Source: Dethiosulfovibrio peptidovorans
GTDB lineage: Bacteria; Synergistota; Synergistia; Synergistales; Dethiosulfovibrionaceae
DNA length: 64,000 nucleotides
Direction of reading: 5' to 3'
Assembly (NCBI GenBank): GCA_002748665.1
Contig: PDTB01000019.1
Coordinates: forward strand, 33,934 to 97,933
This document shows, piece by piece, positions 14,486-24,420 of this stretch. The position numbers were made by a program, and so were the translations under genes. Every line of letters begins with the position of its first letter. Position 1 is the first letter of the stretch. Below the pieces are notes generated by a model. It ran no database searches. It saw nothing but the letters and a program-made list of their open reading frames with translations, and was not told where the DNA came from.

Positions 14486-14495
14486 CTACGAGAAC
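14454..14495 (-). terminator. inverted repeat at the end of the sugar operon
   Basis: The arms GTTCTC and AGGAGT pair with ACTCCT and GAGAAC across the pseC stop codon, leaving a loop of about 16 bases. No T-run follows on the minus strand, so it is a weak terminator or an mRNA 3' end stabiliser for the long pse transcript. Confidence 0.4.
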
Positions 14496-15604
14496 CATAC
14501 TCGAATCGCCTTCGTCACCCGATCCTGATCCTCAGGAGACAACCCCACGTAGATCGGCAGGGAAATCTCCATCGACGAAAATCGTTCGGCCTTGGGAAAA
14601 TCGCCGGGGCGATACCCGAAACGTCTTTGGTAATAGGGATGGAGATGAACGGGTGCATAATGGACCTGAACCCAGATACCCAGCTCCCGAAGATGGATGA
14701 AGAGCTCCTTTCGAGCCTCTGGCGGAACTCGAAAGGAATACAGGTGATAACCATGGCCAGGATGAGCCTGCGGCAAAACGCATCCCGGCAGGGCCGACAA
14801 ATCACGGTCATACCGATATGCCACAGCCCGGCGCTCCTCCAAAAACCGATCCAGCTTAGACAACTGGCTGAGCCCCAAGGCGCACTGAATATCACTGAGA
14901 CGGTAATTGTATCCCAGATCCATCATCTGATTAGCCCACGGACCGTCGGGATTCTCCATAACCACAGGATCTTTGGTGATCCCGTGAGAGCGAAACAACC
15001 GAAGCCTCTCTGCCAACGAAGGATCGTCGGTCACGACTGCCCCCCCCTCGCCGGTGGTGATGTGCTTCACCGGGTGGAAACTGAAGACCGTCATATCGGC
15101 CTCCTGCCCAACCGCACGTCCTCCGCGCCGAGCTCCCAGAGCGTGGCATCCATCCTCAACGACCAAAGCCCCCACGGACCGGGCCATCTCAATGAAAGGC
15201 ACTATATCGACGGGAAAACCGCTGTAACTCACGGGAGCGATCACCTTCACCGCCGAGGAGAGTTTCGCAAAAACCTCGTCGGGATCAAGACATCCCGTAT
15301 CGGCGTCCACATCGGCAAAAACCGGTCGTCCTCCCTGATACAGAGCGGCATTCGCCGTCGCGGCAAACGTCAGAGGCGTCGTGATAACCTCGTCTCCCGT
15401 GCCAACCCCGGCAGCGTACATAGCCCCATGAAGGGCGGCTGTCCCGCTGGAAAAAGCCACGACATGTCGAGCCCCTGTGGCGTTACACAGCCCCGCCTCA
15501 AAAGCCTCCACCGCAGGCCCCTGAGTGAGCCACTCGCCCCTCAAAACAGCCGTCACAGCAGCGATATCGTCGTCGTCGACACACTGATGTCCGTAGGGAA
15601 TCAA
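14486..15604 (-). CDS. pseC: UDP-4-amino-4,6-dideoxy-N-acetyl-L-altrosamine transaminase (PseC-type)
   Basis: A 372-residue DegT/DnrJ/EryC1-family aminotransferase. Visible: FSSGTAALHGAMYAAG, the LTFAATANAALYQGG segment, EDGCHALGARRGG, and the PLP Lys in SFHPVKHITTGEGG. It converts the 4-keto product of PseB to the 4-amino sugar in pseudaminic acid synthesis. The start overlaps the pseG stop as ATGA. Other DegT enzymes (LegC, WecE) share the motifs; the presence of pseB, pseG, pseH and pseI in the same locus makes PseC the best reading. It is the last gene of the locus. Confidence 0.88.
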   Translation of the reverse strand: MIPYGHQCVDDDDIAAVTAVLRGEWLTQGPAVEAFEAGLCNATGARHVVAFSSGTAALHGAMYAAGVGTGDEVITTPLTFAATANAALYQGGRPVFADVDADTGCLDPDEVFAKLSSAVKVIAPVSYSGFPVDIVPFIEMARSVGALVVEDGCHALGARRGGRAVGQEADMTVFSFHPVKHITTGEGGAVVTDDPSLAERLRLFRSHGITKDPVVMENPDGPWANQMMDLGYNYRLSDIQCALGLSQLSKLDRFLEERRAVAYRYDRDLSALPGCVLPQAHPGHGYHLYSFRVPPEARKELFIHLRELGIWVQVHYAPVHLHPYYQRRFGYRPGDFPKAERFSSMEISLPIYVGLSPEDQDRVTKAIRVWFS

Positions 15605-16590
15605 AGCCCAGTCCTCCTCGTCGAAATTTGCGACAAACCGGCCAAAGCCGACAACTCCTCGATTGCCCTACGAGCCCCGTCGACGGGGACACATCCCGGA
15701 GGTGGCGGAACCGCCCTTTCGAGGGCCCCCAAAAGACCTTTTGCAGACACGTCACTCCACCATCCAAGGCTTTGTCCCCAACCAAGATCGCTCAAGGACA
15801 TACCGATAGCCCTCTGGTTCTCCGCAACCTGAAAAACGACCACAGGCTTGTTCAACGCCAGAGCCTCATAACACGTCACGCTCGACGTACAGACCACCGC
15901 TGACGCCCGAGCCATGAGCACCTCAAAATTATCAGGCGCCACAAGAACCGACAAGCCTGGCTTATCCGCGGCAGTCTCGCGAATGGAATCGATCATCACC
16001 CCCGAGACGAAAGGTCCCACCACCACTGTCACAGGCGGCCAGTCCGAGCCATACCACGAAACAAGGCCTGACGTAGCCCCAGCAATATCGGACGCACCAG
16101 CCACAAAAAAGACGAAACCGTCATCTCGGGGCGAAGCATCCCGAAAAGAAGGCCGAAGTGGGACATAGCCTGGCCCCAGCAACAACGACGCCCCGAGCCC
16201 ATAGGGGATATTTTCAGCCCCCAGGTTGTAGTTCAGGACCGCCGAGGCCCACCGTTCCACAGGAAGATGGCGGTAATCGTCGACGACCGTCAGAAAATAC
16301 CGTTCTCCCAGCCACGCCAAGGCATCGGCGGAGAAACGATAGCCGTCAGCGATCACCAGATTTCCACGATCGACATACAGCTGCTCCAAAGCAGGCTCGA
16401 GCTCCGATACGGAAAAGGACTCCACGGCCCGAAAGACATCCCCGTTCCTCATCGACGAGGAGACCTCAGTGGGAACAACCCATCGAACAGTCATATCCAT
16501 ATCCCGAGCAGCACAAGCCAGAGATCGACACCGACTCAGGTGCCCCCCCCCCACCTCGGGACCGCCGTCAGCGAGAATGATACCCCTCAT
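15601..16590 (-). CDS. pseG: UDP-2,4-diacetamido-2,4,6-trideoxy-L-altropyranose hydrolase (PseG)
   Basis: A 329-residue GT-B-like sugar nucleotide hydrolase that releases UDP before the PseI condensation. The family's start motif appears as ILADGGPEVGGGHLSRC, followed by VVDDYRHLPVE and the late segment VVCTSSVTCYEALALNKPVV for uridine binding. The start at 16590 (GAGG just upstream) is preferred; an 87-base longer frame has no family match. It overlaps pseC by four bases but is separated from pseH by 325 bases, the only large gap in the locus. Confidence 0.88.
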   Translation of the reverse strand: MRGIILADGGPEVGGGHLSRCRSLACAARDMDMTVRWVVPTEVSSSMRNGDVFRAVESFSVSELEPALEQLYVDRGNLVIADGYRFSADALAWLGERYFLTVVDDYRHLPVERWASAVLNYNLGAENIPYGLGASLLLGPGYVPLRPSFRDASPRDDGFVFFVAGASDIAGATSGLVSWYGSDWPPVTVVVGPFVSGVMIDSIRETAADKPGLSVLVAPDNFEVLMARASAVVCTSSVTCYEALALNKPVVVFQVAENQRAIGMSLSDLGWGQSLGWWSDVSAKGLLGALERAVPPPPGCVPVDGARRAIEELSALAGLSQISTRRTGL

Positions 16591-22530: not shown

Positions 22531-23422
22531 GTCTGGTGTCAGCCTCCTTTGGCCAATACACGGGCTCCACCACTGCCGGATCGTCGACGGCGAAGGACGA
22601 TAGACCATGGCCCCACCTCTCAGGCCTCTGAGACAGAACCTGCCCGATCTCTTTAAGATGTTCCAGACCGTTCACCCCGACCACCAGCCGATCCACCTCG
22701 GGAACGGCCAGACAAAATCCCAGGGCCATCGCTAAAGGAGAAAGCCCACGATCTTGCCCAATATCCCGCAACGATCGCAGCAGGGGCCGAACGGCGTCAA
22801 AATACGAGGATGGCTCGTCGGGCTCCATCAGCAAGAGCCCCTGCAAAAAACAGGAACGAACGTGAAGCTCAAGGCCCCGGCGTTTCATACGCCCGAGAAG
22901 ATCGTTTTGAAGAAATCTCTGATCCAAAATATTCATGGGGAACTGAACCAGATCCACGTCGTATCTTTCCAGAACGGCCTCGGCTTCCTGAGGACGATAG
23001 AGAGAAACCCCGATCTTTTGGGTCAGCCCCTCCTCCCTGCAACGACACAGCTCACACCAGAGGGACTCTTCCTGAGAACCAAGCAGGTCCTGCGCGTTAT
23101 GGACCAATACCCCATATAAAGAGGGAACTCCCAGAGATCTCAGGGTTCGGGACACCCCCTCCAGGGGAGAAGAACCCCCGGAAGGGACCTTGCTCACCAC
23201 CAAAAACTCATGCCCCTCAGGCATGGTCCGACCTAGAACCGACTCGGCGTTGCCGTACACCGGAGCCGTATCGAGACATCGAAGCCCCCGGTCATGACCG
23301 TATCGCAAAATGGCTGCGACCTCATCGGGCTCGGTGCATCCCCTTCTGTTGGAGATACCGTATGAGAGCCCAAACTGCGCAGTCCCCAGCCCCAGCCGGT
23401 CAAACAATCTCTCCTGAATCAT
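22520..23422 (-). CDS. aldo/keto reductase family protein
   Basis: A 300-residue NAD(P)H-dependent TIM-barrel reductase. It starts with [16 protein letters not shown], has the catalytic-type [15 protein letters not shown] (Asp and Tyr), a VVSKVP strand with Lys, YGVLVHN with His, and [15 protein letters not shown]. This subgroup is often found in surface-sugar loci. It overlaps pseB upstream (ATGA) and the GNAT gene downstream. A role in reducing a keto group on a nonulosonic acid precursor or side chain is plausible but not established. Confidence 0.85.
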
Positions 23423-24420
23423 CCCTGTTCTATCAATTGCAGGATCTCGTCGTGAGATAACACCTGAGGATTAGCCCCCGAACTATACTCAAACCCCTCC
23501 GACACCGGCACCCCCTTCTCGCCCAAAGGATTTGAGGCATACTCAACCGGTTTAAGAAAACTGACAGACGGAGTGATAACAAAATGATCGTGAAACTCCA
23601 GAGTGCGTTTCGAGTCGTCGGCAGGACACATCACCTCGTGAAGCTTCTCCCCTGGGCGACTTCCCACGATCTTTTGGGGCAACCCGGGAGCCATCACCTC
23701 GGCGAGATCGACGATCCGAAGAGAGGGGATCTTCGGGATGAAAATCTCTCCAAGCTGAGTTCGTTGAAAGGCCTTGAGGACAAACTCCACCCCCTGAGAG
23801 AGCGTGATGACGAATCGGGTCATCCTGGGATCAGTGATGGGAAGCTCCGAAGCTCCCTGTTCCAGAAGTTGACGAAAAAAGGGAATCACCGACCCCCGGG
23901 ATCCAACCACGTTGCCATAGCGGACCACGGCAAAGCGGGTTCTCCCCTCTCCCACCAGGTTGTTGGCAGCGATGAACAGCTTATCGGAACACAGCTTGGT
24001 TGCCCCATAGAGATTGACGGGATTGGCGGCCTTATCGGTGGAGAGGGCGATAACCCGCTCCACATCAGCAGCGATAGCCGCACGGATGACGTTGTAGGCA
24101 CCATCCACGTTGGTCTTTATACACTCCATGGGGTTATACTCCGCTGCGGGAACCTGCTTGAGCGCAGCGGCATGGACCACGAAATCCACGCCCTTCATCG
24201 CCATGGACAGACGTTCCCCATCCCGAACATCGCCGATAAAATAGCGCATGGCTGGATGGTCGAAGGATTGCTGCATCTCATACTGCTTAAATTCATCCCG
24301 AGAGTAGACGATAACCCGCCGAGGAGGAGGAGACTGAGTCCGCAACAGATGTCGGATAAACGCCTTACCAAACGAACCGGTTCCACCGGTCACCAAAACG
24401 GCCCTTCCACCAAACACCAT
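23419..24420 (-). CDS. pseB: UDP-N-acetylglucosamine 4,6-dehydratase, inverting (PseB)
   Basis: A 333-residue extended short-chain dehydrogenase. The NAD-binding motif is [14 protein letters not shown]. The catalytic segment [20 protein letters not shown] keeps the S-T-D-K and Y-x-x-x-K arrangement of PseB/FlaA1. The start of the sugar path is therefore the L-altro (pseudaminic) branch rather than the legionaminic one. It is the first gene of the pse block, 31 bases after a terminator that follows flaG. Confidence 0.92.

Follow-up and report, generated by a model that had tools for sequence, protein, structure and literature searches.

A stretch of 64,000 nucleotides of Dethiosulfovibrio peptidovorans DNA (the window) carries an eleven-gene operon on the minus strand, running from position 24420 to 14486, and we propose with moderate confidence that this operon makes, for flagellin, a cytidine monophosphate (CMP)-activated pseudaminic-type nonulosonate in which a third nitrogen is present, most likely as an 8-amino-8-deoxy group. 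Its product would most likely be a 5,7,8-triamino-3,5,7,8,9-pentadeoxynonulosonate. The recurrent addition to the pseudaminic acid genes is a trio of oxidoreductase, cytidylyltransferase and class III aminotransferase, whose members a first-pass annotation made from the letters alone had listed but not interpreted. Every gene which that annotation named was found on the minus strand where it had been placed. In the direction of transcription the operon reads:

23419 to 24420, minus strand: PseB, the inverting uridine diphosphate N-acetylglucosamine (UDP-GlcNAc) 4,6-dehydratase (TIGR03589, 515 bits, cut-off 408)
22520 to 23422, minus strand: aldo/keto reductase (AKR; PF00248), with D51, Y56, K78 and H108
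22021 to 22608, minus strand: GNAT2, the second GNAT acyltransferase (PF13302; 43.5 bits on the PseH model, cut-off 93.1), probably starting at an inner ATG near 22530
21230 to 22033, minus strand: SpsF-type cytidylyltransferase (PF02348, CTP_transf_3, 111 bits)
19917 to 21233, minus strand: AT3, a class III pyridoxal phosphate-dependent aminotransferase (PF00202, 139 bits)
18849 to 19877, minus strand: NeuB/PseI-type nonulosonate synthase with a SAF domain (PF03102, 286 bits; PF08666)
18144 to 18848, minus strand: formyltransferase of the PDB 1zgh type (PF21553; 1zgh at E 1e-57)
17468 to 18157, minus strand: PIG-L family de-N-acetylase (PF02585; HPDDE and GDxxxDH motifs)
16916 to 17464, minus strand: PseH-like GNAT N-acetyltransferase (TIGR03585, 94.1 bits, cut-off 93.1)
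15601 to 16677, minus strand: PseG-like UDP-sugar hydrolase (TIGR03590, 88 bits, below the cut-off of 154), probably starting at an inner ATG at 16590
14486 to 15604, minus strand: PseC aminotransferase (TIGR03588, 461 bits, cut-off 424)

With the longest reading frames, neighboring genes overlap at six of the ten junctions; at three the gap is 0-39 bp, and between PseH and PseG it is 238 bp. The genes had been called nearly all overlapping, which holds for the six junctions and not for the other four. A tandem-repeat scan found none, and a promoter scan returned two sites against 6.3 expected.

Curated cut-offs, here the NCBIfam equivalog and Pfam model thresholds, were used to judge each gene. 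PseB, PseC and, narrowly, PseH pass their equivalog cut-offs, so that three of the five Pse signatures originally reported hold at that level, while PseG and PseI are recognizable but fall below theirs; the PseG-like protein also had no Pfam match at 0.001. The SpsF protein scored only 24 bits on the PseF model (cut-off 206). The genome (completeness 100) contains a single NeuB match, on which the idea of a second nonulosonate locus was set aside, and two CTP_transf_3 genes, SpsF and KdsB. The latter reached 208 bits on the kdsB equivalog (cut-off 155) and 42 bits on the PseF model; neither gene reaches the PseF cut-off, and PseF is in this sense absent from the genome. Because SpsF is not PseF and the only other CTP_transf_3 gene of the genome is KdsB, SpsF is likely the CMP-nonulosonate synthetase that replaces PseF. 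The count of five genes beyond the known pathway was thus a fair one: six extra kinds had been listed, and SpsF most likely substitutes for PseF. In Bacillus subtilis, spsF mutants make legionaminic acid, yet it is missing from the spore surface (PMC7439481; papers given by PMC number were available in part, and our statements refer to those portions).

Pfam cut-offs are passed by AKR, AT3, PIG-L and the two GNATs. All 38 aligned AKRs retain the tetrad and all 74 aligned aminotransferases retain Lys269 of AT3, counts that include the window. We take the tetrad, Lys269 and the two PIG-L motifs to be catalytic.

In the phylum, AT3 matches at 1e-40 were found in 18 of 185 genomes, six of which (that of the window included) were at least 67% identical to the AT3 of the window and the other 12 at 32-35%. 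AKR, GNAT2, SpsF, AT3, PseB and PseC form one cluster close to flagellin in each of the six close genomes, and the flagellins beside the five other AT3 clusters are 64-69% identical to that of the window. The first-pass annotation had allowed that its extra genes might prove unlinked in relatives; no such unlinking was seen for AKR, GNAT2, SpsF and AT3. NeuB, PseH and PseG are inside the cluster in two of the five other genomes. In G170 and G172 they were read about 38 kb from the AT3 cluster, with NeuB 73-74% identical, and in G171 NeuB is on another contig. G170-G172 were considered as NeuB-less systems, a reading set aside on account of the genes lying 38 kb off in G170 and G172; an SpsF BLAST found no cytidylyltransferase near the distant NeuB of these two genomes (20 kb read). 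G170-G172 also carry WbuX/PseA-type amidotransferase, HisH-like and HisF-like genes between AKR and GNAT2 (among these three genomes, family models were run on G172 only). Since these amidine-type genes occur there, the decoration genes vary around a constant core. A formyltransferase was found in none of the five other AT3 clusters.

The same association extends far beyond the phylum. A scan of named genomes returned at least 549 AT3 relatives, and the best 80 loci were analyzed with family profiles, in counts that include the fused-AT3 loci L049, L052, L060 and L063; contig ends cut the flanks at many of the 80, and absences are therefore weak. The trio, defined as AT3 with a cytidylyltransferase (SpsF or PseF) and an oxidoreductase (AKR or Gfo/Idh), was present in 53 of these 80 loci, within 6 kb in 52 cases, and 51 of the 53 also had at least one of PseB, PseC, NeuB and PseG. 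These 53 loci are spread over 27 named groups, each an NCBI phylum or, if none is given, a class, and seven unranked records. Two of the best 80 loci are archaeal, and NeuB and PseC occur in 43 and 51 of the 80, respectively.

Two unrelated dehydrogenase families fill one slot beside the aminotransferase, as expected of an oxidation-transamination pair. AKR was found within 6 kb of AT3 at 43 of the best 80 loci, Gfo/Idh at 21 and both at three (about 11 expected; P 2e-5). At 48 AT3-bearing virus loci the counts were nine, 28 and zero (P 1e-4), and after virus AT3 copies were merged at 80% they were six, 28 and zero of 43 (P 8e-4); all of these P values ignore relatedness, which lowers their force. 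Annotation of the BLAST community gave AKR 50, Gfo/Idh 16 and both 0 of 86. For the cytidylyltransferase, SpsF was found within 6 kb at 50 of the best 80 loci, PseF at nine and both at none (both at two of 80 anywhere). An AT3 tree built by a quick method and labeled from the BLAST community, with the AKR/SpsF labels of the window and of its five orthologues in the phylum assigned by hand, required at least eight AKR/Gfo changes and at least seven SpsF/PseF changes, so that both swaps are repeated events.

Gene order and fusion bring the three functions closer still. The commonest orders among 128 loci from genomes and virus contigs were Gfo/Idh-SpsF-AT3 (38) and AKR-SpsF-AT3 (25). SpsF is fused to AT3 in four of the 80 genome loci and in 28 of the 48 AT3-bearing virus loci, and to AKR in one genome locus (L065). 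Because of these fusions, the chemistry of the trio can be placed at the sugar-activation stage. On plasmid pSMR1-1 a single run reads pseB-pseC-AKR-GNAT-hypothetical-(SpsF-AT3)-pseG-pseI. In the class to which the Burkholderiales genome G185 belongs, six of 369 genomes (G185 included) have an AT3 match, and all five further loci read from that class have the SpsF-AT3 fusion.

The virus contigs come from IMG/VR (L122-L209): AT3 is present in 54 of these 88 loci, all 54 with SpsF, some contigs being counted twice. The virus tally above uses the 80 SpsF-found loci (48 with AT3) and leaves out eight AKR-found loci, several of them on the same contigs. Many of the virus-contig AT3 loci also have PseB, PseC or NeuB. 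In the 77 kb virus record G565, which holds L140, seven of ten proteins match PHROGs to which a function has been given, among them families of virion structure, tail and primosome, so that some phages at least appear to carry this sugar pathway. Terminase_6N was found in 0 of 12 virus records, and an AT3 search of phage records gave no match.

Several variations in the core genes were observed in passing. Long PseG proteins of 488-527 amino acids occur in L042, L043, L057, L061, L063 and L114. A GNAT domain is fused to PseG in four of the 80 genome loci and in L121 and L216, where it may replace a separate PseH. Five of the loci L040-L119 (e.g., L040:1989-4103) encode proteins of about 700 amino acids whose N-terminal part matches the PseB profile and whose C-terminal part is PseC. 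In the G023 cluster, the protein L026:5786-6250, which separates PseG from PseH, presumably resembles an ISL3-type transposase fragment.

Pseudaminic acid (Pse) has two free secondary hydroxyls, at C4 and C8. Its C8 comes from C5 of the hexose, and because that carbon sits in the pyranose ring until after PseG, C8 can be modified only after NeuB. From the gene identities, their linkage, the intact catalytic residues of AKR, AT3 and PIG-L and the co-occurrence of the trio with nonulosonate genes, we infer the reactions that follow, and likewise that the amine is at C8, which acyl groups it bears and what the acceptor is. PseB, PseC, PseH and PseG would convert UDP-GlcNAc into 2,4-diacetamido-2,4,6-trideoxy-L-altrose, which the NeuB-type synthase would condense with phosphoenolpyruvate, so that the C5 oxygen of the hexose, ring-bound before, would become a free C8 hydroxyl. 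The AKR would then oxidize the C8 alcohol to a ketone and AT3 would transaminate the 8-keto intermediate; SpsF would activate the acid with CMP, in an order relative to these two steps that the model does not fix. GNAT2 may acylate the new amine, and PIG-L with the formyltransferase may swap one N-acetyl for an N-formyl group. Computed residue masses for such 8-amino products are odd: 315.143 with two acetyls, 357.154 with three, 343.138 with two acetyls and a formyl, 329.122 with one acetyl and two formyls and 301.127 with one of each, compared with 316.127 for Pse5Ac7Ac. Finally, Maf would transfer the product to flagellin. The presumed acceptor and transferase lie directly upstream of the operon in the sense of transcription:

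24499 to 24903, minus strand: FlaG-like protein (two FlaG models, 26-28 bits, far under their cut-offs)
24979 to 27303, minus strand: flagellin of 774 amino acids, presumed glycan acceptor (many flagellin models, the best at E 1e-96 and 324 bits, below the cut-off of 352 for that model)
27440 to 30208, minus strand: Maf/PseD-like motility accessory factor, presumed glycosyltransferase (NF050051 domain, 132 bits, below the cut-off of 670)

The earlier suggestion that a modified nonulosonic acid is made for flagellin is thus supported by the gene content and by these three neighbors.

Two published precedents support the C8 position. EpaA, a fusion of CTP_transf_3 and Aldo_ket_red domains, acts with the short-chain dehydrogenase/reductase (SDR) EpaB to convert Pse5Ac7Ac, the di-N-acetyl form of Pse, into its 8-epimer in a capsule, as established by nuclear magnetic resonance (PMC12053666). 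An 8-keto intermediate is the natural reading of this reaction, although the available text contains no word beginning with "keto"; by analogy, we propose that an aminotransferase in place of the SDR would yield an 8-amine. An amine of this kind is known from the O-polysaccharide of Flexibacter maritimus, which contains an 8-amino-3,5,7,8,9-pentadeoxy manno-type nonulosonate (PMC3210612).

A possible flagellar counterpart is found in Aeromonas. An odd mass requires an odd number of nitrogens, and the polar flagellin of A. hydrophila AH-1 bears a nonulosonate-like sugar of 403 Da, whose fragments in part match a Pse derivative and in part are off by one unit (PMC4691044). The AH-1 pseB-C and pseG-I genes were sequenced as pairs (PMC4691044), and these fit the order of Aeromonas subgroup IA, which has a reductase and a class III aminotransferase (PMC7874193); on that ground we would assign AH-1 to IA. 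Within Group I, A. hydrophila occurs in IA and IB only, with two further strains in IIIC and 30 in Group II (PMC7874193). In A. caviae the flagellin ion of 317.1 corresponds to plain Pse (PMC9290775). The AH-1 sugar would fit a triamino product, a match that is suggestive only because, by mass computation, 403 Da also fits two-nitrogen cores with an amino-acid acyl group such as Glu.

This ambiguity is one of several points that weigh against a third nitrogen at C8. The tentative formula given for the 403 Da sugar by its authors has no nitrogen and leaves 25 Da unaccounted for (PMC4691044), and the membership of AH-1 in subgroup IA is our own deduction from paired pse order in two papers. The tested partner of EpaA is an SDR, not an aminotransferase (PMC12053666). 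Within the operon, the NeuB-type synthase stays under both relevant cut-offs (PseI: 321 bits, cut-off 340; NeuB: 328 bits, cut-off 400), as does the PseG-like protein under its own, and the formyltransferase keeps the His and Asp of the usual triad with Val in place of the Asn two residues before the His. Across the best 80 loci, the full trio is missing in 27, many with flanks cut by contig ends, and with the more sensitive profiles AKR and Gfo/Idh do occur together, at three loci within 6 kb and at seven anywhere. In L084, L116, L094 and L070, AT3 relatives 55-57% identical to that of the window, from Acidobacteria and Lentisphaerae, have no recognized nonulosonate gene around them; because some relatives stand in this way, AT3 alone does not predict the sugar.

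The best-surviving alternative, which we consider unlikely, is the one favored by the first-pass annotation: a two-nitrogen Pse on which PIG-L and the formyltransferase swap N-acetyl for N-formyl, with AKR and AT3 minor or unrelated. De-N-acetylation followed by N-formylation is the simplest reading of these two genes, and they are direct neighbors in the window, in L045, L056, L095, L216 and L217 and in virus loci L194 and L209. In L217 a GNAT-formyltransferase fusion (7809-8981) is followed by PIG-L, and no pse gene was recognized in the 16.5 kb read. An N-formyl pseudaminic-type acid has also been reported in Pseudoalteromonas (PMC3210612). The association is nevertheless loose, the pair being optional additions to the trio, since among the best 80 AT3 loci four have both genes, four have the formyltransferase alone and seven have PIG-L alone. 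In the phylum, the formyltransferase was matched in three of 185 genomes (that of the window, G173 and G143) and in none of the five other AT3 clusters, whereas AKR, SpsF and AT3 are present in six of six. Formylation as the main feature was set aside on account of this rarity; N-formylation as such may occur and does not define the system. The two-nitrogen alternative would also leave the conserved dehydrogenase-transaminase pair without a role.

The formyltransferase itself passes Pfam for its C-terminal domain alone (PF21553, 70 bits against 27). We take Asn-His-Asp to be the usual catalytic triad of sugar N-formyltransferases, and the missing Asn counts against formylation too; Val occupies the site in 1zgh as well, Asn is found there in one of ten aligned formyltransferases, and the RGG motif after the His is kept in the ten. 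Of the other two phylum genomes, G173 has a pse cluster linked to flagellin that includes PIG-L and Gfo/Idh, with AT3 not found in the 16.5 kb read, and G143 has a GNAT-formyltransferase fusion and PIG-L, with no pse gene recognized in the 16.5 kb read. A flagellin-linked pse cluster from another family of the phylum (L216:10175-12415) has an SDR, Gfo/Idh and a pair of PseF-like cytidylyltransferases that each fall short of the PseF cut-off; it may yield two different activated sugars.

Somewhat less probable is a version in which AKR and AT3 aminate C4 of the nonulosonate or C3 of the hexose rather than C8. Besides C8, Pse has a free secondary alcohol at C4, and this option counts against the C8 placement; moreover, other sugar pathways use a Gfo/Idh enzyme and an aminotransferase to put amines on ring carbons. 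Amination at hexose C3, however, would take away the oxygen needed for closure of the nonulosonate ring, and NeuB is present in 43 of the best 80 AT3 loci. Both published precedents also point to C8: EpaA, the tested enzyme with both domains, acts there with EpaB (PMC12053666), and the amine of the F. maritimus sugar is at C8 (PMC3210612).

We regard as slightly more doubtful again the idea that AKR and AT3 build a nitrogen-containing acyl donor, which GNAT2 attaches to an amine of ordinary Pse, no sugar carbon being aminated. In sequence, AT3 comes closest to glutamate-1-semialdehyde aminomutases and to amino-acid aminotransferases, and a nitrogenous acyl group would likewise give an odd mass (Glu plus acetyl on Pse, 403.16). 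Against this, fusion to the cytidylyltransferase and close linkage with it indicate the CMP-sugar stage, the eleven genes include neither a ligase nor a carrier protein, and GNAT2-type domains occur in just 29 of the best 80 AT3 loci. Class III enzymes also aminate sugars, and C-6' aminotransferases are among the PDB matches of AT3. That AT3 is a housekeeping glutamate-1-semialdehyde aminomutase linked by accident is highly improbable and was set aside: its best NCBIfam model bears the name glutamate-1-semialdehyde 2,1-aminomutase, but the scores are far below cut-off (235 bits against 486, and 192 against 527 on the HemL equivalog), the context is nonulosonate in six of six phylum orthologues and 51 of 53 trio loci, and SpsF-AT3 fusions exist.

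The classical CMP-pseudaminic acid pathway of Campylobacter and Helicobacter consists of PseB, C, H, G, I and F. The window resembles it in PseB, PseC and, narrowly, PseH at equivalog level, in PseG-like and NeuB-type proteins and in the flagellin and Maf-like genes beside it; it differs in having SpsF in place of PseF, in PseG and PseI falling below their equivalog cut-offs, and in the addition of AKR, AT3, GNAT2, PIG-L and formyltransferase. The EpaA/EpaB system of A. baumannii prophages (PMC12053666) shares its CTP_transf_3 and Aldo_ket_red domains with the window, but there they are fused, whereas the window has two genes with GNAT2 between them plus an aminotransferase. An SDR partner (adh_short_C2) is not among the eleven operon genes, of which PseB is the sole SDR-type protein. 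AKR-SpsF pairs occur on virus contigs; for the L065 SpsF-AKR fusion, no phage record matched and a virus-contig scan gave no relative. The 8-amino sugar of F. maritimus (Tenacibaculum) is the kind of product proposed for the window, but is there a polysaccharide component with 3-hydroxybutyryl (PMC3210612), and in the open-access literature available to us, in part, we found no report of its biosynthetic genes. The polysaccharide genes of Tenacibaculum maritimum NCIMB 2154 are named MARIT_2522-2537 in its genome paper, the available text of which makes no statement on the trio (PMC5561996).

Similar in gene content, by description, are the Aeromonas polar flagellin islands IA-IE (PMC7874193), in which pse genes flank a reductase and a class III aminotransferase, beside polar flagellin genes and Maf-1. 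They differ in a gene called pseF and in having a deacetylase only in IE among IA-IE; the available text gives the reductase/aminotransferase pair no specific reaction and contains no word beginning with "formyl". The pse cluster of Vibrio B9-25K2 (PMC7371886) likewise has an SpsF-type domain, proposed for the missing cytidylyltransferase and fused to AKR, but the available text does not describe a class III aminotransferase. Because these Aeromonas and Vibrio papers already describe parts of the gene set, the novelty here is the interpretation and breadth of the trio, not a first sighting of the genes. In the open-access literature, outside which most subscription journals fall, the available portions yielded no paper giving the trio a role in C8 amination, and no paper on a "triamino" nonulosonate was found there. 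Whether the sugar itself is undescribed, as the first-pass annotation had suggested it might be, is uncertain, since 8-amino and N-formyl pseudaminic-type acids have each been reported in other organisms (PMC3210612).

The window and its five phylum orthologues all have AT3, SpsF/PseF and AKR/Gfo/Idh clustered with pse/neu genes, and we tentatively extend the argument, at a confidence a little below even, to one widespread and unrecognized branch in which a dehydrogenase, a cytidylyltransferase and AT3 would make 8-amino nonulosonates in bacteria, archaea and phages. Such a branch would supply the missing genes of the F. maritimus 8-amino sugar and account for the 403 Da sugar of AH-1; in the organism of the window it would yield a flagellar sugar that is both triamino and N-formylated and has not been described before.

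The nonulosonic acids of the cell surface have a bearing on how flagella assemble, on antigenicity and on recognition by phages. Annotation by gene name would call the cluster of the window ordinary pseudaminic acid. If the third nitrogen is real, many genomes in more than 20 phyla and some phages would be predicted to make an extra-amine variant, and the trio may explain unusual bacterial surface sugars that lack an assigned biosynthesis. The prediction would then be testable on purified flagellins through a short list of odd masses.

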